Of a stretch of DNA of 35,941 bases, positions 20,079 to 35,610 are shown piece by piece. Under the pieces are notes generated by a model. It was given only the letters and a program-made list of their open reading frames with translations, had not been told where the DNA came from and did not search any database. The stretch is from an uncultured Methanosarcinales archaeon (GTDB lineage Archaea; Halobacteriota; Methanosarcinia; Methanotrichales; Methanotrichaceae), in NCBI GenBank assembly GCA_903871465.1, contig CAIQHB010000012.1, forward strand, positions 1 to 35,941, given 5' to 3'. Positions within the stretch are counted from its first letter, which is position 1. The number at the start of each line of letters is the position of its first letter. Made by a program: the position numbers and the translations under genes.

Positions 20079-22091
20079 CTATCTTACCTTAGTTCCTGTT
20101 TCAACTTGGTCTCTTGGCCGCAGCAACACGGCCTTGCCGCTGGCGTCTGCTGCCAAGAGCATAGCTTGCGACTCGATGCCGAAGAGCTTGGCGGGCTTAA
20201 GATTTGCCAGGACGACTACCTGGGTGCCCACCAGATCCTCCGGAGAGTAAGCCTCTGCGATGCCGGCCACAACCTGGCGGGTCTCGCCGCCGATATCTAC
20301 CTCGAGCTTGAGAAGCTTATTCGAGCCTTTTATAGGGCCTGCTTTCTTTATCTCTCCGATGCATAGATCCAGAGACTGGAAATCCTCAAAAGAGATCTCT
20401 CCCTTCTTCTTGGCGGTCTTTCCCTTTTCTTTGGATTCGCTTTGCTCTATCCTCTCTTTGAAGATTCTATCCAGCTCTTTGACGAATGGCTCTTCCATGC
20501 GAGAGAAGAGAATCTCTGGGACCCCTAGCTTCTGGCCTGCTGCCAGGGGTGCCAGTGCTTCCTGGAAGGGCATTTCGCAGGCACTGCCAACCAGACCGAG
20601 CTGCTTCCAGGCAGCTTCCATTTTGGCGGGCATGACCGGTTCCATAAAAATAACCAGCGCTTTGGCGATCTGCAGACAGCTTCTCAGGACTGTTCCGGCC
20701 GATGCTTTGTCGTTTTTAATCAGCTTCCAGGGCTCGTGATTCTGGAAGTATATGTTGCCATAGTCCGCCAGCGTCATAACGCTGTCTGTGGCCTTCTTGA
20801 ACTCGTACTCCTCCAGGCCGGATATAACTTCCGCCATGGTTTGACTGATCCTGGCCATGACCTCTGCATCGATCACGCCATCCGGAACCTCTCCCTCAAA
20901 GTTCTTCACGCTGAAGGTCAGGGCGCGGTTAAGGAAGTTGCCAAAAGCTCCTACCAGCTCGGTATTAACTTTATCGGCAAATATCTTCCAGGCAAAGTTG
21001 ACCTCTTTGTTGTGGGCGGTGTAGCTGGCCAGATAGTAGCGCAGTAGATCGGGATGTAGGCCCTTATCCAGGTAATCGTCCTTCACCCAGATAACATTGC
21101 CCCTGGATTTGGAGAATTTCTTGTCGTCGATCTTGAGCATGCCGCTGGCGACGACAGCAGACGGCAGGGTGTATCCGGCTCCTTTGAGCATGGCTGGCCA
21201 GAATATGCAGTGATGGTAGACTATGTCTCCCCCGATGAAGTGGATGATCCTGGCCCCATCCTTCCAGTAATCCTTCCAGTCCTGGCCGTTTCTGGCACAC
21301 CACTCCTCAGTGAAGGCGATGTAGCCTATGGGCGCATCCACCCAGACGTAAACCACGAGGTCGCTATGGCCCGGGAACTTAATGCCCCAGGCCATGTTGC
21401 GGGTTATGCACCAATCTTTTAGCTCCGCTCTGACCCACTCCATAGCGTAATTTCGGGCGGACGCAGTTCCTCCCAGGGTTTCCAGATACTTTAGCAAAAA
21501 TCCTTTGAACTCTGAGAGCTTGAAGAAATAGTGAATCTGTTTGCGGTACTCGGCTTTGCTGCCGCAGACCTTGCAGATGGCGTTCTTAATCTCACCTGGC
21601 TCCAGATGGCGGCCGCAGCCCATATCGCACTCATCGCCGCGAGCGGTTTTTCCGCAATAAGGGCATTCCCCTTCCACATATCTGTCCGGCAAATATCGTT
21701 CGCACTTCGGACAGTAGGCCAGCTCTATCTCCTTAGGATAGACATAGCCGCCGTCCATGAGTTCCTTCACCACCTCTTGCGTGCGATTATGGCAGGCCTG
21801 GTCGTCCGTATCTCCAAAGAAATCAAAATTGACGCCCATTCCTTTAAAGACTTCATCAAAGTGCTGGTGGTACTTGGTCGCCAACGTTTTCGGAGCCATT
21901 CCTTGGGCTTCGGCGTTGACCACGATGGGAGTCCCGTGGGAGTCCGAACCGCATATGAACAGCACAACTTTTCCCATTTTTTTTAATCCTCGAACGAAGA
22001 TGTCCGCAGGTACATAAGTTCTTAAATGGCCCAGGTGACATGGCCCGTTGGCATAAGGCAGGCCGCAGGTTACAAGGATTGGCGATGACAA
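20079..22091 (-). CDS. metG: Methionyl-tRNA synthetase with C-terminal tRNA-binding domain
   Basis: This class I synthetase is about 670 aa. It carries [20 protein letters not shown] (HIGH-type motif), a zinc knuckle region with four CxxC pairs (CPKC, CPYC, CDMGC, CKVC), and [20 protein letters not shown] is the KMSKS equivalent, and an alpha-helical anticodon domain follows. A charged linker (about residues 540-565) leads to a C-terminal EMAP/OB domain beginning [15 protein letters not shown]. The start is uncertain. TTG 22091 gives [10 protein letters not shown] with GGTG 8 nt upstream and matches the family. GTG 22100 and ATG 22187 are in frame, the latter adding 32 unfamiliar residues. 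It heads the operon. Its 5' end is duplicated at about 22690-22977. Confidence 0.93.
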
Positions 22092-22227
22092 TGAGAACAC
22101 CGCATCTCGATATGGAGCAACAAGGAGATATAGGTTTCCCAGGCAGACGGAGTCGCCCGGATTCCATCCCATTTCGGTTATAAGCACGAAGGGTCATGGG
22201 ATCCAACCAGAGAATCTTGGATAAAAT

Positions 22228-22237
22228 GTATATAACC
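22228..22237. promoter_or_regulatory. Shared TATA region between metG and the secreted gene
   Basis: TGTATATAAC is nearly symmetric and could serve both directions. It lies about 80 nt before the secreted-gene ATG at 22310 and about 140 nt before the metG TTG at 22091. The same box recurs in the duplicated unit at 23114-23123. Confidence 0.45.
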
Positions 22238-22309
22238 GGATGGCAAATGCAAACAATAATATCAAATTGGCCACCTTATAAGAGACAATAGATACAATGG
22301 GGGTATCAG

Positions 22310-22684
22310 ATGAGATTAATTATTCTAGCCCTTTTACTGGCTCTAGCCTTCGGCACGGCGCAGGCCTCTCCGCTGCAAGGCAGCGACGGAACCGCAAAAG
22401 TCACGCTCTTTGGGTCGATCAGGACGCCCCTGGAGGAAAGTGCCTCCCAGGAGATCCTGAAGGTCGATATCGGGCTCATGGGCACTGAGAACGCCACGTA
22501 TAAGCTGATGGATGCAAACAACAGCGTTTATGAACCCGGCCTTTATAAGATCCTCTCTTCAGGAAGGCAGCTTGTCTACTTCCTAATTCCTAAAGACGAC
22601 CTCTTCAAGCTCATCACGGCAACGCCACAAGGCGGAAAGTCCATCAACATCAACTGGTGGGCACGGCCCAAGGCGAGCAACTAG
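22310..22684 (+). pseudogene. Truncated secreted-protein copy (124 aa), product of tandem duplication
   Basis: Residues 1-122 match, almost residue for residue, the first part of the intact gene at 23196. Shared features are the signal peptide MRLIILALLLALAFGTAQA, LQGSDGTAKVTLFGSIRTPL, VDIGLMGTENATY and SGRQLVYFLIPKDDLFKLI. It stops at ARPKASN where the duplication junction falls; the intact gene goes on ARPKVSNENLI. Its promoter and GGGGGT ribosome binding site are intact, so a short secreted protein may still be made. It carries one sequon (NAT) and lacks the second Ig-like half and the glycosylated tail. Remnant or new small protein: undecided. Confidence 0.7.
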
Positions 22685-22689
22685 AATTG

Positions 22690-22977
22690 ATCGTCCGCAT
22701 CTCCCAAAAAAAAAAAAACGAAATTGATGCCCCATCCTTGCAGACATCATCAAAGTGCCGGTGGTACTTGGCAGCCAACGCTCTTGGAGCCATTCCTTAA
22801 GCTTCGGCGTTAACCATAACGGGAGTCCTATGGGCGCCCGAAGCCGCAGACGGATAGAACCTTTTGGCCCATATCTTTTAATCCCCGAACGAAGATGTGC
22901 GCAGGCACATAAATTCTCAAATGGCCAAGGCGACATGGCCCGTTGGCATAGGGCAGGCCGCAGGTACAAGGATTGGC
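22690..22977 (-). pseudogene. Degenerate 5' fragment of metG
   Basis: The DNA is closely similar to metG 21801-22091. The phrase ATCAAAGTGC-GGTGGTACTTGG and CATTCCTTxxGCTTCGGCGTT recur. The reading frame is broken by indels, including a run of 13 A at 22706-22718 and loss of about seven bases near the start codon. Only about 95 codons are represented, covering the HIGH region but not the zinc or KMSKS parts. It cannot be functional as a synthetase. It arose with the tandem duplication. Confidence 0.75.
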
Positions 22978-23576
22978 AATGAGAACACCGCCTCTCGATA
23001 TGAAGTAAGGGGAGAAATTGGTTTCCCAGACCGAAGGGGTCGGATGGGGGCCATCCTATTTCGGTTAAAGGCCCGAAAGGCCAATAGTCCCCACCATAAA
23101 ATCTTGGATAAAATGTATATAACCGAATGGCAAATGCAAGCATTAATATCAAATTGGCCAACTTACAGAGACAATAGATACAACGGGGGTATCAGATGAG
23201 ATTAATTATTCTAGCCCTTTTACTGGCTCTAGCTTTCGGCACGGCTCAGGCCATTCCGCTGCAAGGCAGCGATGGAACCGCAACAGTCAAGCTCTTTGGG
23301 TCGATCAGGACCCCACTTAATGACACTTTGGAGATTCTTAAGGTCGACATCGGGCTCATGGGCACTGAAAACGCCACTTATGAGCTCATGGATAAAAACG
23401 ACGCCCTTTATGAACCGGGCCTTTATAAGACTCTCTCTTCTGGAAGGCAGCTTGTCTACTTCCTGATTCCTAAAGACGACCTATTCAAGCTCATCACGGC
23501 GACACCACTGGGCGGAAAGCCCATAAACATCAACTGGTGGGCAAGGCCAAAAGTGAGCAACGAGAATCTGATAATA
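22691..23576. repeat. Tandem duplication, unit B
   Basis: Second copy of the unit at 21801-22690. It retains the metG 5' segment in degraded form, the divergent promoter (TATA 23114-23123) and the 5' third of the intact secreted-protein gene. Substitutions and small indels are spread through the non-coding and metG parts, while the secreted-gene part is better conserved. Confidence 0.85.
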
Positions 23577-24404
23577 CGGTACTATGGAATTACAGACTGG
23601 CTGACCAATCAAAATGAGGAGGGCATAATCGTTCAGAGCATAGTCGTTCAGGTCACCGCCCAAAACAATGGAACCAAAGATCTGCTATTCAGCCCGGAGA
23701 ACTTCACCCTCCTAGATCAGTGGGGCTGGCCCTACAATCCCACGGCGGGATTCGATTCAGAGATCATTGGGCCCCAAAAAACTAGTCCTCTAGTATTGCT
23801 GGGCTTTACCAACATATCTCTCTTCAGCAAACCGGCTGCTCTGGTCTACGACTACAATACCGCTCACCCGGTCGTCACAGACTTTGAAAAAGACTTTGTG
23901 CCGCTAACCGATTCCGTAGTCTATGGCGTAAATGCCACAAAGAGTGCCGCCAAAGTACAGTCTGCACCGCCTGCCCAGGCATCGACCGTCGTCACGACGA
24001 CCAAGCCGGCTGCAAATCAGACTAATCAGACAGCTTCGGCTCCGGCTAACAACTCCACCGGCATTAAGCTCACTTCTCTCAAAGATAAGATCGCCGCCGT
24101 CCATTCGAGGCTCGGGACCGCGGGAAGCTCGAACTCCAGCGGCCAGAAATCAAAAGTAAGCGAAAGCATCAACTCCAGCCTTAATGCCGCGCGAGAGAGG
24201 CTTGCTGCCACGAAAGCTAACCTCACTAAGAAGACGCAGAATAACACATCAAATAGCACATCAAAGTCGAATGCTACATTGAACGCTACATTGAACAACA
24301 CACTTAATAGCAAATTGAATAGCACCCTGAACAACACACTGAATAAAACCCCAAATGGCACCACAAGCAGCATGTCGAATAGCATGTCGAGCATTTCTGC
24401 CTGA
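23196..24404 (+). CDS. Secreted Ig-like (DUF4352-like) protein with sequon-dense tail
   Basis: The 402-aa exported protein has a signal peptide (1-19) and a first beta domain (about 20-125). A second domain (about 135-240) has the DUF4352/TRF2-like look: VQVTAQNNGTKDLLFSPENF then TLLDQWGW. A Ser/Ala/Thr-rich stalk follows, including a helical piece (LTSLKDKIAAVHSRLG). The last 60 residues are built from N-x-T/S units; I count about eleven sequons in the final segment from KANLT onward. No transmembrane anchor or sorting signal is seen. It is probably a heavily N-glycosylated surface or sheath-associated protein; function is unknown. The start has GGGGGT 6 nt upstream. A hairpin terminator follows at 24421. 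A shorter 5' copy lies upstream and a paralogue downstream. Confidence 0.72.
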   Translation: MRLIILALLLALAFGTAQAIPLQGSDGTATVKLFGSIRTPLNDTLEILKVDIGLMGTENATYELMDKNDALYEPGLYKTLSSGRQLVYFLIPKDDLFKLITATPLGGKPININWWARPKVSNENLIIRYYGITDWLTNQNEEGIIVQSIVVQVTAQNNGTKDLLFSPENFTLLDQWGWPYNPTAGFDSEIIGPQKTSPLVLLGFTNISLFSKPAALVYDYNTAHPVVTDFEKDFVPLTDSVVYGVNATKSAAKVQSAPPAQASTVVTTTKPAANQTNQTASAPANNSTGIKLTSLKDKIAAVHSRLGTAGSSNSSGQKSKVSESINSSLNAARERLAATKANLTKKTQNNTSNSTSKSNATLNATLNNTLNSKLNSTLNNTLNKTPNGTTSSMSNSMSSISA

Positions 24405-24511: not shown

Positions 24512-25444
24512 ATGAAATGGCTATTTCTAGCTTTGTTCATAGGTCTAATCCCGGGAATTGCCCAAGGTTATCCCCTGCATGCAAGCAATGGAGTCGTGAA
24601 TTGCACTATCTTTGGCACCTTCCTGGATGCCTGGTCATCGGGAAACGCAAATTCCGACTCTTACGTTGTACTCAATGTGGACCTGAGCGTGACATGGATA
24701 AACGCCAGCGATAAGGCCCCCATTCTTGCCGTCTACAGTCTTATGGACGGCAATGATCGGGTTTTCAAGATGGTCCCCGGGTATGCAAGAGAGCTCCAAC
24801 CAGACCGCTGGCTGATAGGTTTCGTGGTTCCCAGAGAGACGATTGCCAGGAACTTGATCGTGGACTTTTCCCAGGAAAACGTCAGCGGCGAACAGTTCTC
24901 GATTTACTTCCCAAGGCTCGTCAACTCCAGCAACGGAAATGTGTTACTCCTCTACTATGGCGTATTGCGATCCTGGACAGATTCCGACAAAAAGAGCGTT
25001 GTATTGGACATAGCCGTCACCAACAACGGAACAAACAAATTGCCGGTGGACGCTCAGAACTTCACCTTGATGGATCAGTGGGGCTGGAAGTACAGTGGTA
25101 GAGAGTATGATCTGCCTGGCAATAAGGGCATCTCCAAAGCGGTGCTGGAGCAGAATGCGACTATAAGATCGGGCTTGATCTTCAGCTCCATTTCGCCCTT
25201 AAGCCGGCCGGTTGAGCTGGACTATAAGTATTCTAATGGTAGCTCCCTCGCCCTGGATATAGATCCGGAGTCGGGCCTGTGCTCCGGCAAAGCATCGACT
25301 AATTGCAGCGAATGTAATAGTGCCAAGGAGCAAGCTGCTGCGGCCAACCTGGCCGGTTCCATTAAGGCCAGCAAAGGCCAGGCAGACAAGCCGGGCGCGA
25401 ACGCCGTCGGCAGCAGCGCTCATAAGGGACGGGATGAGCTATAG
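24512..25444 (+). CDS. Secreted paralogue of the Ig-like protein, with C-terminal Cys cluster
   Basis: The 310-aa protein has the same plan as the protein at 23196. It has a signal peptide (MKWLFLALFIGLIPGIAQG) and PLHASNGVVNCTIFGTFLDA opposite PLQGSDGTATVKLFGSIRTP. Further matches are YSLMDGNDRVF, LLLYYGVLRSWTDS and TNNGTNKLPVDAQNFTLMDQ. The C-terminus differs: it has a Cys cluster C-x7-C-x2-C (LCSGKASTNCSECNSA, about residues 259-274) and a Lys/Ala/Gly-rich end, with fewer sequons. The molybdoenzyme gene starts 12 nt after its stop, so the two are almost surely co-expressed. The role may be an extracellular partner or substrate of that enzyme (inference). No anchor is visible. Confidence 0.7.
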   Translation: MKWLFLALFIGLIPGIAQGYPLHASNGVVNCTIFGTFLDAWSSGNANSDSYVVLNVDLSVTWINASDKAPILAVYSLMDGNDRVFKMVPGYARELQPDRWLIGFVVPRETIARNLIVDFSQENVSGEQFSIYFPRLVNSSNGNVLLLYYGVLRSWTDSDKKSVVLDIAVTNNGTNKLPVDAQNFTLMDQWGWKYSGREYDLPGNKGISKAVLEQNATIRSGLIFSSISPLSRPVELDYKYSNGSSLALDIDPESGLCSGKASTNCSECNSAKEQAAAANLAGSIKASKGQADKPGANAVGSSAHKGRDEL

Positions 25445-25455
25445 AGTGAGAAGAA

Positions 25456-26469
25456 ATGGTCTTTGCACCAATACATTACATTCCCTCTGTCTTCTCAGCT
25501 CTCCTGATCATTTTTCTCGCTGGGAGGGTTCGCGCACATAAGAGCATCGCCCTGATTATGGCCTCATTTGCGGCTTTAGGCCTGGTGGGCTATCTCTCCC
25601 GGGGCGAATTTCGCTTTTATCCCCTGGACATGCACGTTCTGCACTCATGGCTCGGCATGATCGCGCTCATGCTTACCCTGACCGTCTTTCTGGATGGAAT
25701 GTTGTTTCACAAATTTCATGGCCGGTCTCACTGTAGAGTGGGATATATAGCCGCATTTTTTGCCATCCTCGCGCTCTCGAGCGGCCTATATCTGCTCTTT
25801 GGATTGGCGGATTTGCAGCAAGAGACACCTTTATCGAATGAGACCTCTAGGCCTGCATCAGAGCATTCGGAGCCCTTTCTCCAGCAGAATGCATCCCATA
25901 TCCTGCAGGAGGTGGAAACCCAGCGGTATCAGGGAAAAAATCTGATGCCCTTGAGCCAGCAGGGGAATAACGCCATCCAGGGAACGCAAGTTATCAACAA
26001 AGATACTTACCGGCTGGTTGTCACGGGTCTAGTCGAGAAGAATCTGAACATGAGTTACGAGGAGCTTCTGGCGCTACCGGCATACGCGGAGGAGGCTTAC
26101 ATGCCCTGCGTGGAAGGATGGGGATTCGATGCCAAGTGGACCGGATTTCGGGTCGTCGATCTATTGAACCTTTCCGGTTTGAAGCCAGGTGCAAGCTATG
26201 TGGTATTCTACTCCAGTGACGGCTACTCCACGGGCCTTCCTCTCGATTATCTGAGCGCAAACAAGATACTTTTGGCGTACGGCATTAATGATGTCACTCT
26301 GCCTCATGAGCGGGGTTTTCCCTTCCAACTGGTCGCCAAGAGCCGGTACGGTTACAAGTGGAGCAAATGGATAACCAGGATCGAGGTCGTGGATAAGGAA
26401 GTGAGAGGCTACTGGGAATCGAGAGGCTACAGCAATAGCGCCAAGGTGGGTGAGATTCCATTTGGGTAA
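25456..26469 (+). CDS. Membrane-anchored molybdopterin-dependent oxidoreductase (sulfite-oxidase fold)
   Basis: The 337-aa protein has four N-terminal membrane spans (about 8-25, 30-48, 60-80, 95-117). A hydrophilic linker (120-180) leads to a sulfite-oxidase-type molybdopterin domain (about 183-315). The Mo-ligand Cys is C218 in MPCVEGWGFDAKWTG; other family motifs are YSSDGYSTGLPLDYL, LPHERGFPFQLV and YGYKWSKWI. Histidines H60 and H63 at the start of span 3, with H85 and H88 after it, could bind heme b, making this a cytochrome/molybdoenzyme fusion. The catalytic domain should face outside. The reaction is unknown: sulfite, sulfoxide (MsrP-like) or another oxyanion chemistry are options. 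It is coupled to the secreted Cys-containing gene upstream by a 12-nt gap. Confidence 0.75.
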   Translation: MVFAPIHYIPSVFSALLIIFLAGRVRAHKSIALIMASFAALGLVGYLSRGEFRFYPLDMHVLHSWLGMIALMLTLTVFLDGMLFHKFHGRSHCRVGYIAAFFAILALSSGLYLLFGLADLQQETPLSNETSRPASEHSEPFLQQNASHILQEVETQRYQGKNLMPLSQQGNNAIQGTQVINKDTYRLVVTGLVEKNLNMSYEELLALPAYAEEAYMPCVEGWGFDAKWTGFRVVDLLNLSGLKPGASYVVFYSSDGYSTGLPLDYLSANKILLAYGINDVTLPHERGFPFQLVAKSRYGYKWSKWITRIEVVDKEVRGYWESRGYSNSAKVGEIPFG

Positions 26470-26687: not shown

Positions 26688-29600
26688 ATGCAAAAGGCAA
26701 TCTTGATTTTGATCTTGACGGCGGCTCTTCTATGTATGAGCGCTGCCAGCGGGGCTGACTTTGGAAAAGAGCGCCCCATTGCCATCGTGACGGGCTCAGA
26801 GCAGGAGCAGCCCGCCATAGACGGGCATATTGTAGCCTGGGCGGATAACAGAAGCGGAAACTACGACATCTTCATGTATGACCTGGAGACCGGCCTGGAG
26901 AAATGGGTGTGCATCAATCCGTTCTTCCAGATCAATCCTGCCGTATCAGGCGAGCGCATCGTCTGGCAAGATATGCGATCAGGAAATGCTGATGTTTACA
27001 TGTATGATGTCGTCAACCGGACGGAGTCTGCTGTCACAACCAACCCCGGAAACCAGACCCAACCCGATATCAACGGCAATCGTGTGGTCTGGTCGGATGA
27101 TCGCGAAGGCATCTATAAGGTTCATCTCTACGATCTGATCTCCAAGAAGGAGCAGACCCTTCCTTCAGGCAAGGGAGAGCAGATCGAGCCCAAGATCAAC
27201 GGGGACAAAGTGGTCTGGATGGACAAGCGCTCTGGAGACTTTGACGTCTACATGTACGATATAACTGGTGGCAAAGGGTCGGCAGTCGCCACTGGCCCGG
27301 GAGATCAGTCGTTTCCTTCGATCAGTGGCAATATTGTAGCGTGGTCTGATAATCGCACCGGAGAGTCCGACATTGCCTACATGGACCTCGCAACTCAGAA
27401 GACCACGACCCACACCAAGCCCGGCAAGCAGACGGACCCGAAGGTTTATGGCGAATTCATTGCCTATCTGAACAACGGCACGGATATAAATCTCTACGAC
27501 ATCAAGACTGGCACTGATTCTACCCTGGCACCGGGATACATCAAGATGGAACCTGCTATCAGCGATCGGGGCGTCGTCTGGACGGATTACAGGGAAGGTC
27601 CAAGGGATCCGGATATTCAGATGTACGACTTTAAAATGCTGGCTGATGTTTCCATAACCAATGGATCTTTCAACCACACCAATCCCTCTATCGAAGGGGA
27701 CAACATCGTCTGGACGGATAACAGGAATGGACACTACAACGTTTATCTGTACAACAGCGCTACCAATAAAGAACGGAACATAACCAGTGACGGTTTTGAC
27801 CACAGCAGCCCAGATATCAGCGGCAACAATGTGATCTGGACTGATAAGAGCCTGGGCAACCTCGATATCTTCCTGTATGACCTTTTGACGGGCAAGATCC
27901 GGCAAATAACATCCGGAACAATCGATCATTATTATGGAATGATTGACGGCAATATCATCATCTGGATTGACAAACGGTCTGGAGACGAACAGGTCTACCA
28001 ATACGACATCGCTACAGGGAAGGAGAGGGCGATCACCAGTCAGAAGTCCTTCAAGCTCTCACCCGTAATAAACGGCGACAATGTCGTCTGGATCGATGAT
28101 CGGAACAAAGGAAGCTGGGATGTCTACCAATACAATCTGACCACAGGCGTTGAGACCCCCATCTGCACCAACTCGGCCCGGCAAGCCCAGCCCTGGATTT
28201 ATGGAAATACCATAGTCTGGGCCGACGGACGAAACAAGAACTGGGACATATATACCTACGATCTTACAACCAAAATCGAGAGAGCGCTGGTAACCAACTC
28301 CGCCAACCAGGGCTACCCCATGGTATATGGAAATTTTGTGGCCTGGCTGGATGTGAGAGGAGGGGATTCGGACATTTACCTCTACGATCTTGAGAAGGGT
28401 AAAGAAGTGCCGGTGGCCACGCTGCCCATGCAGCAGACACCCAACGATGGAAAAGGGGACCCTTATAAGGTGAAACCAAACCATTCCTCCAAGATCATAA
28501 GCGGTAACAAGATCGTCTGGATGGACAATAACAATGGCTATTCGCAGATCAAGATGAGATATATCAACTCCGATCCGCTGCTGCTCCTGAACACAGACTT
28601 TCCCAGCACCAACGGCAGCCTGCTGGTATGGAGCGACAACCGGGGAGGCAACTGGAACATCTACGGCTTCGACTTCTTCACGAGATCTGAGAGGCCCATC
28701 TCCCGAAGGGATTACGACCAGCTATATCCCAAGGCTTCTGGCGATAAAGTGGTCTGGGCGGACTACAGAAATGGGGATGCCGACATCTATCTGAAAAACC
28801 TGACAACAGGCGTAGAATCTGCCCTTGTAACGGGCAAAGGCGATCAGGTCTGGCCGTCCATATCCGGCAATAGAGTTGTCTGGCAGGACAACTCCAGCGG
28901 CAACTGGGACATTTACATGCAAGATCTTGCTACGGGTAAGACGACGCCCATTTACAAAGGCCCCGGCCAGCAGATGTATCCCATCATCAGCGGCGATTTG
29001 GTGGTCTGGCAGGACAACCGGAACGGCAACTGGGACGCTTATGTCAAGGATCTGGCGTCCGGAAGCGAGACCAAGCTAACTGGTGATGGAGACCAGGTCT
29101 ATCCCGACGTCTCCGGAAACACTATCGCCTGGGAGGACGGCAAAACCAAAGACATCTCCTATTACATCTGGGATAAGAAGTGGGGCAAGACCTATCCCCG
29201 GCCAGGAGAGCAGACGAACCCCGTGGTTTCGGGCAAGTACATAGCCTATGTGGACGGAGTGGGTACTAACACATCCATCCGCAAGCTGGATACCAGCAAC
29301 TGGAAGGACGATCTTGTCCAGACGGGACCGGGACAGGTCAAGCCCAGCATGGACGAGAAACTGGTCTGGCTCAACTCACCGGCCGGCAGGCCAAGATCAG
29401 TGCCTGTGACGGCAGGCCAAACCAGCGTTATCTGCAAAGCACCCGGCGACCAGAGCCATCCCGTTGTGGGTGGAAACGATCAGGTAGGATACTACGTCGC
29501 CTGGATGGATAACCGCACCGGAAACCCGGATATCTATGTCTATAGCCTGGCTCAGGAGATCGAACTTCCGATAGCGGCAAGCCCGTATGAGGACATGAAT

Positions 29601-30329
29601 CCGGATATCTCAGGAAGCATCCTCGGGTGGGTTGCCCGTAATCCCGAGAACCAATATCATATCCCGAATTACTGGTCGATCAGGACTTTTGATATGTCCA
29701 TCGATAACTCCACGGAGCTTGTCTACGGTCTGGAGAATGCTACACCGGTTTCACTTAGCGCCAACTACCTGGCCTATTTGAGAAAGAATTACTTTGGCTG
29801 GATGGTCTATGTGAGGCCGATCTACCAGAAAGAGGTCAACGCGGAATATCCGCCCAATGGCATCAATCCGCGGGCCGGAGGAGATTATGTCGTCTACCAG
29901 GATAACAAGAAAGGGAACTGGGATATCTGGTTGTGGAAGCAGGGCCAGAGTCCCGTGGCTCTGGTAAGCGACGCGAACGATCAGATCAATCCGGCGACAG
30001 ACGGACAAACGGTGGTCTGGCAGGACAACAGGAACGGCAATTGGGATATCTATGCCTACGACCTGAAAACCAGCAAGGAGATACAGATAACCAAGGATAA
30101 AGCGGATCATACCAATCCGGACGTGGAGAACGGAGTCGTTGTCTGGCAGGACAAGAGAAACGGCAACTGGGACATTTATGCCTACGATATGAACGTCAAG
30201 AAAGAGAAAGTTATATGCATGGGTCCCGGAGCTCAGACCGAGCCGCGCATAAAAACTGGCAGGATCGTCTGGACCGATGACCGGAGCGGAAACAAAGACA
30301 TCTACCTCTATGAAAACTACATGGCATAA
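26688..30329 (+). CDS. Large exported TolB-like beta-propeller repeat protein
   Basis: The 1213-aa protein has a signal peptide (MQKAILILILTAALLCMSAA) and then repeats end to end. Each repeat has a core of (V/I)(V/I)W-x-D-x-R-x-G-x-x-DIY-x-YDL, preceded by NP-x-(I/V)-G. I count 28 copies with a period of roughly 42-43 residues; the last ends YENYMA. Copies 18 and 26-27 are the most alike (VVWQDNRNGNWD, VVWQDKRNGNWD) while 19-24 are the most worn. Twenty-eight blades would suit four seven-bladed propellers (inference). No anchor or sorting motif is seen, so it may be held by the S-layer or a partner. Such proteins in methanogens are surface proteins of unknown ligand. Confidence 0.82.
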   Translation: MQKAILILILTAALLCMSAASGADFGKERPIAIVTGSEQEQPAIDGHIVAWADNRSGNYDIFMYDLETGLEKWVCINPFFQINPAVSGERIVWQDMRSGNADVYMYDVVNRTESAVTTNPGNQTQPDINGNRVVWSDDREGIYKVHLYDLISKKEQTLPSGKGEQIEPKINGDKVVWMDKRSGDFDVYMYDITGGKGSAVATGPGDQSFPSISGNIVAWSDNRTGESDIAYMDLATQKTTTHTKPGKQTDPKVYGEFIAYLNNGTDINLYDIKTGTDSTLAPGYIKMEPAISDRGVVWTDYREGPRDPDIQMYDFKMLADVSITNGSFNHTNPSIEGDNIVWTDNRNGHYNVYLYNSATNKERNITSDGFDHSSPDISGNNVIWTDKSLGNLDIFLYDLLTGKIRQITSGTIDHYYGMIDGNIIIWIDKRSGDEQVYQYDIATGKERAITSQKSFKLSPVINGDNVVWIDDRNKGSWDVYQYNLTTGVETPICTNSARQAQPWIYGNTIVWADGRNKNWDIYTYDLTTKIERALVTNSANQGYPMVYGNFVAWLDVRGGDSDIYLYDLEKGKEVPVATLPMQQTPNDGKGDPYKVKPNHSSKIISGNKIVWMDNNNGYSQIKMRYINSDPLLLLNTDFPSTNGSLLVWSDNRGGNWNIYGFDFFTRSERPISRRDYDQLYPKASGDKVVWADYRNGDADIYLKNLTTGVESALVTGKGDQVWPSISGNRVVWQDNSSGNWDIYMQDLATGKTTPIYKGPGQQMYPIISGDLVVWQDNRNGNWDAYVKDLASGSETKLTGDGDQVYPDVSGNTIAWEDGKTKDISYYIWDKKWGKTYPRPGEQTNPVVSGKYIAYVDGVGTNTSIRKLDTSNWKDDLVQTGPGQVKPSMDEKLVWLNSPAGRPRSVPVTAGQTSVICKAPGDQSHPVVGGNDQVGYYVAWMDNRTGNPDIYVYSLAQEIELPIAASPYEDMNPDISGSILGWVARNPENQYHIPNYWSIRTFDMSIDNSTELVYGLENATPVSLSANYLAYLRKNYFGWMVYVRPIYQKEVNAEYPPNGINPRAGGDYVVYQDNKKGNWDIWLWKQGQSPVALVSDANDQINPATDGQTVVWQDNRNGNWDIYAYDLKTSKEIQITKDKADHTNPDVENGVVVWQDKRNGNWDIYAYDMNVKKEKVICMGPGAQTEPRIKTGRIVWTDDRSGNKDIYLYENYMA

Positions 30330-32846: not shown

Positions 32847-32883
32847 AGCGGGGAAGATAGATCAAATTTGGGTGGCGAATAGT

Positions 32884-35610
32884 ATGTGTAAAAAACGGAT
32901 CGAAAGTGGTTTTATATTAGCTGCACTATTGATATCGTTGATTTCGATATCATCCGCAGCAGCACCGCGTGCATTGCCTGATATTTATACAGGGCAATGT
33001 GGAGTGCAATTGTCTATTGCAGCTCCGGGACTTCTAAAGAACGATATAACATCGTCGGGTCAGCTGCAGGTACTTGAGCCTGAAACGATCTCGATCGATC
33101 CAAAATACGGGACTCTGAATGTAAATGAAAACGGGTCATTTGTCTACAATGCTGCACGAAATATTGCAACAGGCACCTACGTTACATTCTATTATAGGGT
33201 GACTGATGGAACAACCGTGAGCAGTCAGGCATTGGATAAGATTCAGGTAGCCTGCTCTTGCCACGGTGTAGCACCAGATGTCAATGTATGTACAGGCACC
33301 GAGATTACACCGGCGTTCCTGATTTCAAAGGGTGCTGGGTGCGTGGGATGCCGCGATGCGACACCCAAGTTCGACCTCAGCAAGATACCTGCCCAGCCGA
33401 TAGCAGGGCAAACCTATGCATATACGGTAACCTGTCCGAGCTGCGTCTCGGTTACGGGTCACGTGCACTTCAATGCACCCTGCAAGATATCGTTAGTAGC
33501 CTTCCCCGTCCCTACCGATAACTGTCCGGGTCACGTGCTGCCGACGGCCGCGCAGATCATAGAATTGGGCCATGTAAGCTGCGGGGGATGCGATGCGACT
33601 CCAGTGATATCCAGGATACACTGGATTGAGCCTACTCCTGAAGCTGGGAATGAATGGGTTGGGGAGTATACAGTAACCTGCACCCCAGGAAAAGGTTGTG
33701 GAGCAACAGAAGAAAAAGGCCAATTCACCAGCACACAATGCGAGGATCTATGCAAAGGAGTAACCTGCACGGCATCTGATGCGTGCCATGTAGCCGGAAC
33801 ATGTGATTCCTCGACCGGAAAGTGCTCAAGTCCAGCAGCACCGGACGGAACTGCATGTACCGATGGCAATGCCTGTACTCAGACCGATGCCTGCATGGCA
33901 GGAGTTTGTACAGGAACAAACCCCGTAACATGTGAAGCATCTGATGCGTGCCATGACGCGGGAACATGCGATTCCTCGACCGGAGAGTGCTCAAATCCTG
34001 CAAAAGCTGATGGAACCACATGCGACGAAGGCGCATGCTTTGATGGGGTTTGCTATGAAGAATACGGCTCCTGCCTCTCGTCACGTGGGACTGCAACAAC
34101 AAGGATATGCTGCAGTTCGGCTTCAGATTTCCCTAATACCTGTGTAATAGGCGCTTGTGGATGCCATGGCGGCAAGGAAACTGTAGTCTGTAACTGCCCC
34201 GAAGGAATGTGTTTCGACGGTACGAATTGTGTATCGCGCACAGCCGACTCTGATAACGATGGGGTCCCAGACCTCATAGATAACTGTCGAGCCATCAGTA
34301 ACCCCGGCCAGGTTGATGCCGATGGCGATGGTGTAGGCGATGTCTGCGATGATTGTGTTGCATCGTCTGAGGTCTGTGATGGTCTCGACAACGATTGCAA
34401 TGGTCAGATTGATGATGGCTTTTCAATGACAGGCTTGGACGGAAACGTATTTGATCGCGTTGGTCAGGCTTGCGGTTCAGGATTCTGTGCTAACGGCGTA
34501 ACCTCGTGCAGCCAGGACCGGACAGGGATTATATGCCCGACTGAGAGAATAGCAAGCCCCGAAACCTGTGACGAGATGGATAACGATTGCGATGGCCAGG
34601 TCGATGAAGTCTGCTGCAATGGAGTGATTTACGATCCCGATAATTATGTCTGCTGCGCCCCAGGGAATGCGGGCACTGGAGGAGCTTACAACCCCTTGAC
34701 CCAAGTCTGCTGCGACGGAGAGATTGAAACGGGCAGCACATGCAGCACGTGTCCACCTGAAAGAGTATGTGGGGAATCAGGCAACGTCTGCTGTTCAGCG
34801 GATACGCATTGTAAAGGAGGGGACTCAGCGTCGTGGAGCTGCGTTCCAGACTCATGTGACGATCAAAATCCTTGCACCGCTGACTCGTTGAACACAGATG
34901 GATACCCATGGTTCTGCAGGAATGATGCCAGCTCAATGAATGGCGCATCTTGTACGGATGACGGCGACACATGCTGCGGCGGAGATTGTGTAGATACGCA
35001 AAGCGACCCGGAAAATTGCGGAGGCTGTGGCACTACAGGATGCATAGGATGCTGCGACGGATATTGCGTATCTAATCCGTTTGATCGTGACAACTGCGGT
35101 GGTTGTGGTGTAGCATGCACAGATAACCAAAAATGCGATCCAGCAAAAGGTTGCGTAAGCTGCCCGGCTGGGACACCAACGGTATGCGGTGAATCATTAG
35201 GTCAAATATGTACGAATACAGCTACAGATCCCAACAACTGCGGAGGTTGTGGCATAGAATGCGATGTTGCTGTGGGAGAAACTTGCGACGATGGACAATG
35301 CCAAATGGGGACCTGTGGAAATGGCGAGAAAGATGGCGACGAGTCAGATATAGACTGCGGTGGTAGCTGCCCCCATAAATGTGGCCTCAGTCAATTCTGT
35401 GCTGACAAGTCTTTCAACCCAGTTAATGCGAACTGCGATTCGGGCTTATGCATAAATTATTTGGGTTGCACCCAGAGCTGTACCGCAGGTACATGTCCCG
35501 ATGGCTATGTTTGCATTAATGATTACTGCGCCAAATCATGTACTGGCGATCCAGATTGTCCTGGCTACACAGCACAGTGCAACATGGCTGGTTGGTGCGT
35601 GTACACTTAG
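32884..35610 (+). CDS. Large secreted cysteine-rich mosaic protein
   Basis: The 908-aa exported protein starts at ATG 32884, preceded by GGTGG (32871-32875). The GTG inside that site (32872) is in frame but is better read as the ribosome binding site. A signal peptide runs to about residue 27 ([17 protein letters not shown]). Next come a cadherin/Big_9-like beta domain (about 30-120, [17 protein letters not shown]), Cys-rich repeats ([20 protein letters not shown], then [20 protein letters not shown]), and a thrombospondin-3-like calcium segment ([28 protein letters not shown]). Two MopE-like metal motifs follow ([28 protein letters not shown]), then NCGGCG repeats (three copies) and further Cys-rich ends. 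No membrane anchor is present. It is probably a calcium- and disulfide-stabilised adhesin; the ligand is unknown. Confidence 0.75.

Follow-up and report, generated by a model that had tools for sequence, protein, structure and literature searches.

The window, that is, the whole stretch of 35,941 nt that was analysed, comes from the 3.13-Mb genome (99.6% complete) of an uncultured Methanosarcinales archaeon of the family Methanotrichaceae, in all likelihood related to Methanothrix. It contains a gene for a secreted protein and, behind it, a gene for a membrane protein with a sulfite-oxidase-fold (SUOX-fold) domain, here called the enzyme. The two-gene arrangement described in an earlier note on this DNA was confirmed, since the open reading frames 24512-25444 and 25456-26469 lie on the same strand with a gap of 11 nt, and judging from this layout they are likely co-transcribed. 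The features considered below are as follows.

23196..24404, forward strand: paralogue 1 of the secreted protein, 402 aa, the conserved upstream neighbour (sequence comparison, neighbourhoods).
24512..25444, forward strand: secreted protein, 310 aa, with a signal peptide and beta-rich domains like those of DUF4352/YjhA/YcdA.
25274..25441, forward strand: C-terminal tail of the secreted protein, predicted to be disordered; it holds the Cys cluster and the LAGSIKA...KGRDEL motif (low pLDDT, alignment).
25445..25455, forward strand: intergenic gap, 11 nt, with a possible ribosome-binding GTGAG (read from the sequence).
25456..26469, forward strand: enzyme gene, 337 aa (PF00174, alignments A1 and A2, AlphaFold2 model, Foldseek).
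25468..25797, forward strand: four predicted transmembrane (TM) helices, enzyme residues 5-114 (DSSP of the model, conservation, loop charges, weak Pfam Cytochrom_B561 match).
25474-25476, forward strand: H7, predicted outer face, outer end of TM1; invariant in 10/10 fused relatives.
25537-25539, forward strand: H28, predicted inner face, inner end of TM2; present in 9/10 fused relatives.
25633-25635, forward strand: H60, predicted outer face, outer end of TM3; invariant in 10/10 fused relatives.
25729-25731, forward strand: H92, predicted inner face, inner end of TM4; invariant in 10/10 fused relatives.
25906..26451, forward strand: SUOX-fold domain, enzyme residues 151-332 (A2 column counts, MsrP alignment).
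26107-26109, forward strand: C218, the putative Mo ligand, aligned with MsrP C146; invariant in 45/45 relatives (A2).
26326-26328, forward strand: Q291, aligned with MsrP R238; Q in 40/45 relatives.

Across relatives, the constant part of the locus consists of metG, paralogue 1 and paralogue 2, and the content downstream varies. In the window, 21949-22687 and 22844-23567 form a tandem duplication (spacing about 885 nt, blocks 81-93% identical) that spans the 5' portion of metG together with the N-terminal region of paralogue 1 and has left a truncated copy at 22310-22684. Directly downstream of the enzyme gene, 26688-30329 encodes a secreted 1213-aa protein with PD40/beta-propeller-like repeats, and 32872-35610 encodes a Cys-rich secreted 912-aa protein with cadherin-like and STIG1-like matches.

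The secreted protein is indeed a paralogue of the product of 23196-24404, as had been claimed (30% identity, E 3e-23). Its folded part resembles DUF4352/YjhA/YcdA secreted beta proteins in the model and by Foldseek; it stays below the Pfam cut-off for DUF4352 (PF11611; E 0.003, 18.3 bits against 25.9) and differs from these proteins by an additional disordered tail that bears the cysteines. No match to a heme or metal family was found. The Cys cluster (C257, C265 and C268) lies in this tail, of which residues 255-310 are predicted to be disordered, with pLDDT 31-38 for most of them. Orthologues were found in 31 of 50 Methanotrichaceae genomes, those of genus g9 (31-36% identical) being less surely assigned. 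The cluster had been called unique; this holds for the exact C-x7-C-x2-C, which among the aligned orthologues occurs in the window's protein only, but not for the CxxC, which is kept in 21 of the 30 genomes compared. The first Cys is shared only with G022, there as C-x8-C-x2-C, and the G037 orthologue has none of the cluster. In genus g1, the C-terminus carries a conserved LAGSIKATKARLAKVKK motif and a KGRDEL-like terminal end, and the window's copy has diverged in its middle part.

The earlier note had read the secreted Cys protein and the enzyme as one extracytoplasmic redox module, the former serving as electron carrier, substrate-binding subunit or repair client. The enzyme gene adjoins the secreted-protein gene in five genomes of three genera (G000, G028 on C51, G031, G001 and G005), and the proposed conservation of the pair thus stood up in 5 of the 8 assessable enzyme-bearing genomes and failed in the 3 in which the genes are apart (G002, G008 and G015). 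Where they are adjacent, the genes share a strand, with a gap of 11-14 nt in genus g1 and about 70-97 nt in g2 and g6; the adjacency persists across genera with saturated synonymous sites, and the CxxC is kept by six of the seven genomes holding both genes, all of which would suit a module. The recurrence of adjacency is more than chance, though not the rule. However, of the 31 genomes that encode the secreted protein, only 7 also carry an enzyme gene that shows no visible damage (the G022 copy is cut by a contig end), and the other 24, including genomes estimated to be 99% complete, lack an undamaged one, which makes the two genes separable. Decayed remnants of the enzyme gene lie at this locus in G028 (C69), G032 and G019 (next to paralogue 1), and in the first two the secreted protein is kept beside the remnant. 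Elsewhere, the enzyme gene follows a NosD-like gene (G008 and G015, both lacking the secreted protein; the G008 gene is frameshifted, or bears a sequencing error) or is unlinked to the secreted-protein gene (G002). Moreover, the CxxC sits in a disordered tail, is lost in several genomes and shows no significant link to the enzyme, occurring in 6 of the 7 genomes that have the enzyme and in 15 of the 23 that lack it (Fisher p = 0.39, a rough guide as the genomes are related; the table counts the CxxC of the truncated G028 protein). Considering the neighbourhoods in the 50 genomes and the comparison of CxxC with enzyme presence, we rejected coupling as the main explanation; a joint module appears quite unlikely, and the secreted protein is probably a neighbour that the enzyme does not require.

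The C-terminal part of the enzyme matched PF00174 with E 3.1e-35 (121.7 bits against the Pfam cut-off of 24), and the AlphaFold2 model had a pLDDT of 82, mostly above 90 in the Mo domain. The best Foldseek match of the model was Escherichia coli MsrP/YedY (1.8 Å over 175 columns), and the fold match of the SUOX-fold domain reached E 8.5e-15. C218, E220, W222, K301, K304 and W305 were invariant in all 45 aligned relatives, C218 and K304 corresponding to MsrP C146 and K251, and C218 lies within the CVE(A/G)W motif of MsrP. The claim of a SUOX-fold domain with a Mo-ligand Cys is upheld. C218 and most of the Mo domain were also invariant in the seven Methanotrichaceae homologues, and dN/dS between genera was about 0.11-0.25 with saturated dS, which we counted in favour of an enzyme. 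On the other side, the pocket differs from that of MsrP at two residues: R238 of MsrP is replaced by Q291, and N233 by R286 (in 43 of 45 relatives). In MsrP, these positions are annotated as contacting the cofactor. A second PF00174 protein of the source genome (C39) has kept Arg at the R238 position and has no visible signal peptide. In G001 (C173, locus L095), a second copy of the Mo domain is broken by five in-frame TGA codons.

Two other identities share this fold. A sulfite dehydrogenase, which would deliver electrons into the membrane, belongs to the same superfamily, and SorA, SoxC and SorT all gave matches with the NCBIfam models, but far under the cut-offs (65/600, 64/420 and 15/570 bits, respectively), on which ground this identity was rejected. 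Moreover, MsrP was the best structural match and the dimerization domain found at the C-terminus of sulfite oxidases is missing from the enzyme, so that such an activity is distinctly improbable. Alternatively, the exported domain could hold some pterin that is not Moco, or no pterin at all, and the membrane part could serve signalling or sensing. PruR, likewise a small secreted SUOX-fold protein (PMC13259868), does match the model (Foldseek E 2.4e-7), and the replacement of R238 and N233 and the failure to find a Tat route for a folded Moco domain (see below) would fit such a role. However, MsrP fits the model far better, and PruR has Trp in place of the Mo-ligand Cys (PMC13259868), whereas the Cys of the enzyme, within CVEGW, is invariant among the relatives. 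The sequence conservation thus weakens the case for a PruR-like role, the heme-gene neighbourhoods described below indicate redox chemistry, and we regard this role as unlikely.

In front of this domain, the model contains four helices (5-21, 28-48, 59-83 and 89-114 by DSSP), in agreement with the four-span membrane part that had been described, residues 1-10 and 50-60 (TM1 and the TM2-TM3 loop) being modelled with low confidence. The 10 fused sequences that were compared comprise the seven Methanotrichaceae homologues and three from other archaeal metagenome-assembled genomes (MAGs). H7, H28, H60 and H92 are all invariant among the former, and H63 is kept in 9 of the 10. Paired His residues on alternate helices are the pattern of b561-type cytochromes. 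As had been supposed, the membrane His appear suitably placed for heme: conserved residues are predicted near both faces in the model and the alignment. The core helices and the weak Pfam match (PF03188; seen in 8 of the 10 fused sequences, at best with E 7.8e-4) also recall eukaryotic cytochrome b561; in contrast to it, the window's domain falls below the cut-off (18.2 bits, E 0.0031, against 23 bits), its match to 4o6y was not significant (E 3.2), and it is fused to a SUOX-fold domain. We found no named family for the membrane part alone, and among 200 genomes of the class it is confined to Methanotrichaceae except for one borderline match. Relatives of this membrane part that stand alone, 118 aa long and lacking a Mo domain, occur in two genera (L093:5364-5717, forward; L094:5569-5922, reverse), near genes for a P-type ATPase and a secreted rhodanese; they have Phe at the H60 position and keep H63.

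Loops 1-2 and 3-4 contain three and two Lys/Arg, respectively, and no acidic residue (K+R against D+E), which predicts that both termini, and with them the Mo domain, are outside the cell. An inverted topology, with the Mo domain in the cytoplasm, would make export unnecessary. It would agree with the synthesis and insertion of Moco in the cytoplasm (PMC10609526), with the absence of TatC from our searches and with the second PF00174 protein (C39), which shows no signal peptide. Nevertheless, the loop charges point the other way and in most of the near relatives the protein starts with a Sec or lipoprotein signal, and we consider inversion very unlikely.

These nearest relatives are found in Methanosarcinaceae, Methanoperedens, Chloroflexota, Actinomycetota and Desulfarculaceae, and mostly consist of the same domain alone (about 180 aa), preceded by a signal of the Sec or lipoprotein type, the signals being classed by eye. 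In the first four groups, they are unnamed secreted short SUOX-fold lipoproteins, 40-61% identical, which share with the enzyme CVEGW, GYKWxKW, mostly Q at the MsrP R238 position and Sec-type signals. Unlike it, they have a lipid anchor and no four-helix fusion, and where a heme partner was seen, a small b561-like gene of its own encodes it. In three Dehalococcoidia, such a gene is directly upstream and, by the ORF calls, ends at most 13 nt before the homologue or overlaps it, as if the pair were a split version of the fusion. The Methanosarcina homologue has cobA, hemD and ahbC upstream, those of Methanolobus and Methanomethylovorans have genes matching ccmA, ccmB and ccmC downstream, and msrA is near at two (L103 and L153) of about 57 loci, which could be due to chance. 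Taken together, the heme, cytochrome and msrA neighbourhoods connect the SUOX-fold domain with heme and redox functions. The fused forms fall into one clade (support 82/98), consistent with a single fusion event; a fusion on a Rhodococcus plasmid and a pair of genes in Variovorax were set aside as different architectures. At one locus (L091, G022:C272, 1655-3638), genes for a thioredoxin-like protein and a redoxin-DsbD fusion are convergent with the enzyme gene.

According to published descriptions, periplasmic Mo enzymes of prokaryotes receive their cofactor in the cytoplasm and are then exported in the folded state by Tat (PMC10609526). TatC was found neither in G000 nor in any of the 50 Methanotrichaceae genomes, some of them estimated to be 99% complete, whereas 11 of 14 control genomes, Methanosarcina acetivorans among them, gave a match in that search. 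No twin-arginine pair before TM4 is conserved in the 10 fused sequences, in which the motif at TM4 reads HCR, HCN, HCG or HCW, and RR is near the signal of a few near relatives only. Tat targeting was therefore rejected, and the enzyme appears to be inserted and exported via Sec. MoaE is present, so molybdopterin synthesis is probably possible.

The comparison with known systems can now be made. Like the methionine sulfoxide reductase MsrP/MsrQ (YedY/YedZ), the enzyme combines a SUOX fold with the CVE(A/G)W Cys, a predicted position outside the membrane and a putative membrane heme b partner. It differs in being one chain with a short four-helix part of weak Cytochrom_B561 similarity, in lacking a Tat signal, in the replacement of R238 and N233, and in its score below the NCBIfam MsrP cut-off (NF003767; 74.9 against 207 bits). 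The heme-Moco fusion Sco3746 has five helices with a conserved twin-arginine before the last and needs both Sec and Tat (Tooke et al. 2017, PMC5449189). Proteins of its type have an outside C-terminal Moco domain and, in their N-terminal helices, His residues that serve two b hemes (PMC5449189), an arrangement that the enzyme is predicted to share; three of the His are conserved and one is less so. Compared by the published description, the enzyme has four helices and no conserved RR, TatC was not found in the 50 genomes of its host family, and its topology is predicted from charges. We found no name for this membrane-SUOX fusion in a literature search. The best reading is that the kind itself is already known, and that a one-chain MsrPQ-like form in a lineage where Tat was not found is new here.

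We thus consider the 25456-26469 protein to be, somewhat more probably than otherwise, a single-chain MsrPQ-like heme/Mo redox enzyme. This reading is based on the computed fold (the close match to MsrP), the invariant C218 set, the b561-like His pairs, the predicted outside Mo domain, the Sec and lipoprotein signals of relatives, the heme-gene neighbourhoods, MoaE and the single fused clade. What follows is an inferred scheme, which covers the topology, the cofactors (heme and Moco), the donor and direction of the electrons, and the substrate. Sec would insert and export the protein; up to two b hemes would be bound between His of alternate helices (H7-H60 outside, H28-H92 inside); electrons, probably from the methanophenazine pool, would cross the membrane through them to a molybdopterin-type centre on C218 in the outside domain. 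The chemistry would most probably be a reduction by two electrons, with an S-oxide or some comparable small oxidized compound as the substrate. No electron-donor gene is linked at the window's locus. Such a compact one-chain design would connect an active site outside the cell with the electron pool in the membrane of acetate-using methanogens.

The failure to find a Tat route, together with the Sec-type signals, implies that the subfamily is loaded outside, that it has another ligand, or that the predicted topology is wrong. We tentatively suggest, as a possibility that we rate below even, that in this apparently Tat-less lineage a SUOX-fold subfamily is exported unfolded by Sec and receives its molybdopterin cofactor outside the cytoplasm. 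If true, this would require the export of Moco across a prokaryotic membrane; the maturation of mitochondrial sulfite oxidase, for comparison, relies on Moco in the intermembrane space (PMC10574614). Since this conserved subfamily keeps the Mo-ligand Cys, mostly has signals of the Sec type and lives here in hosts in which no TatC was found, it is a direct test of the Tat rule: if the domain holds Moco, there is a cofactor route not yet known, and if not, the invariant Cys serves another pterin or purpose. Outside these hosts, tatA and tatC precede the Desulfarculaceae homologue, and at the two loci L151 and L167, from Desulfarculaceae and from a MAG of Proteobacteria, the short SUOX-fold protein encoded behind tatA and tatC has its own signal, which as read contains no RR.
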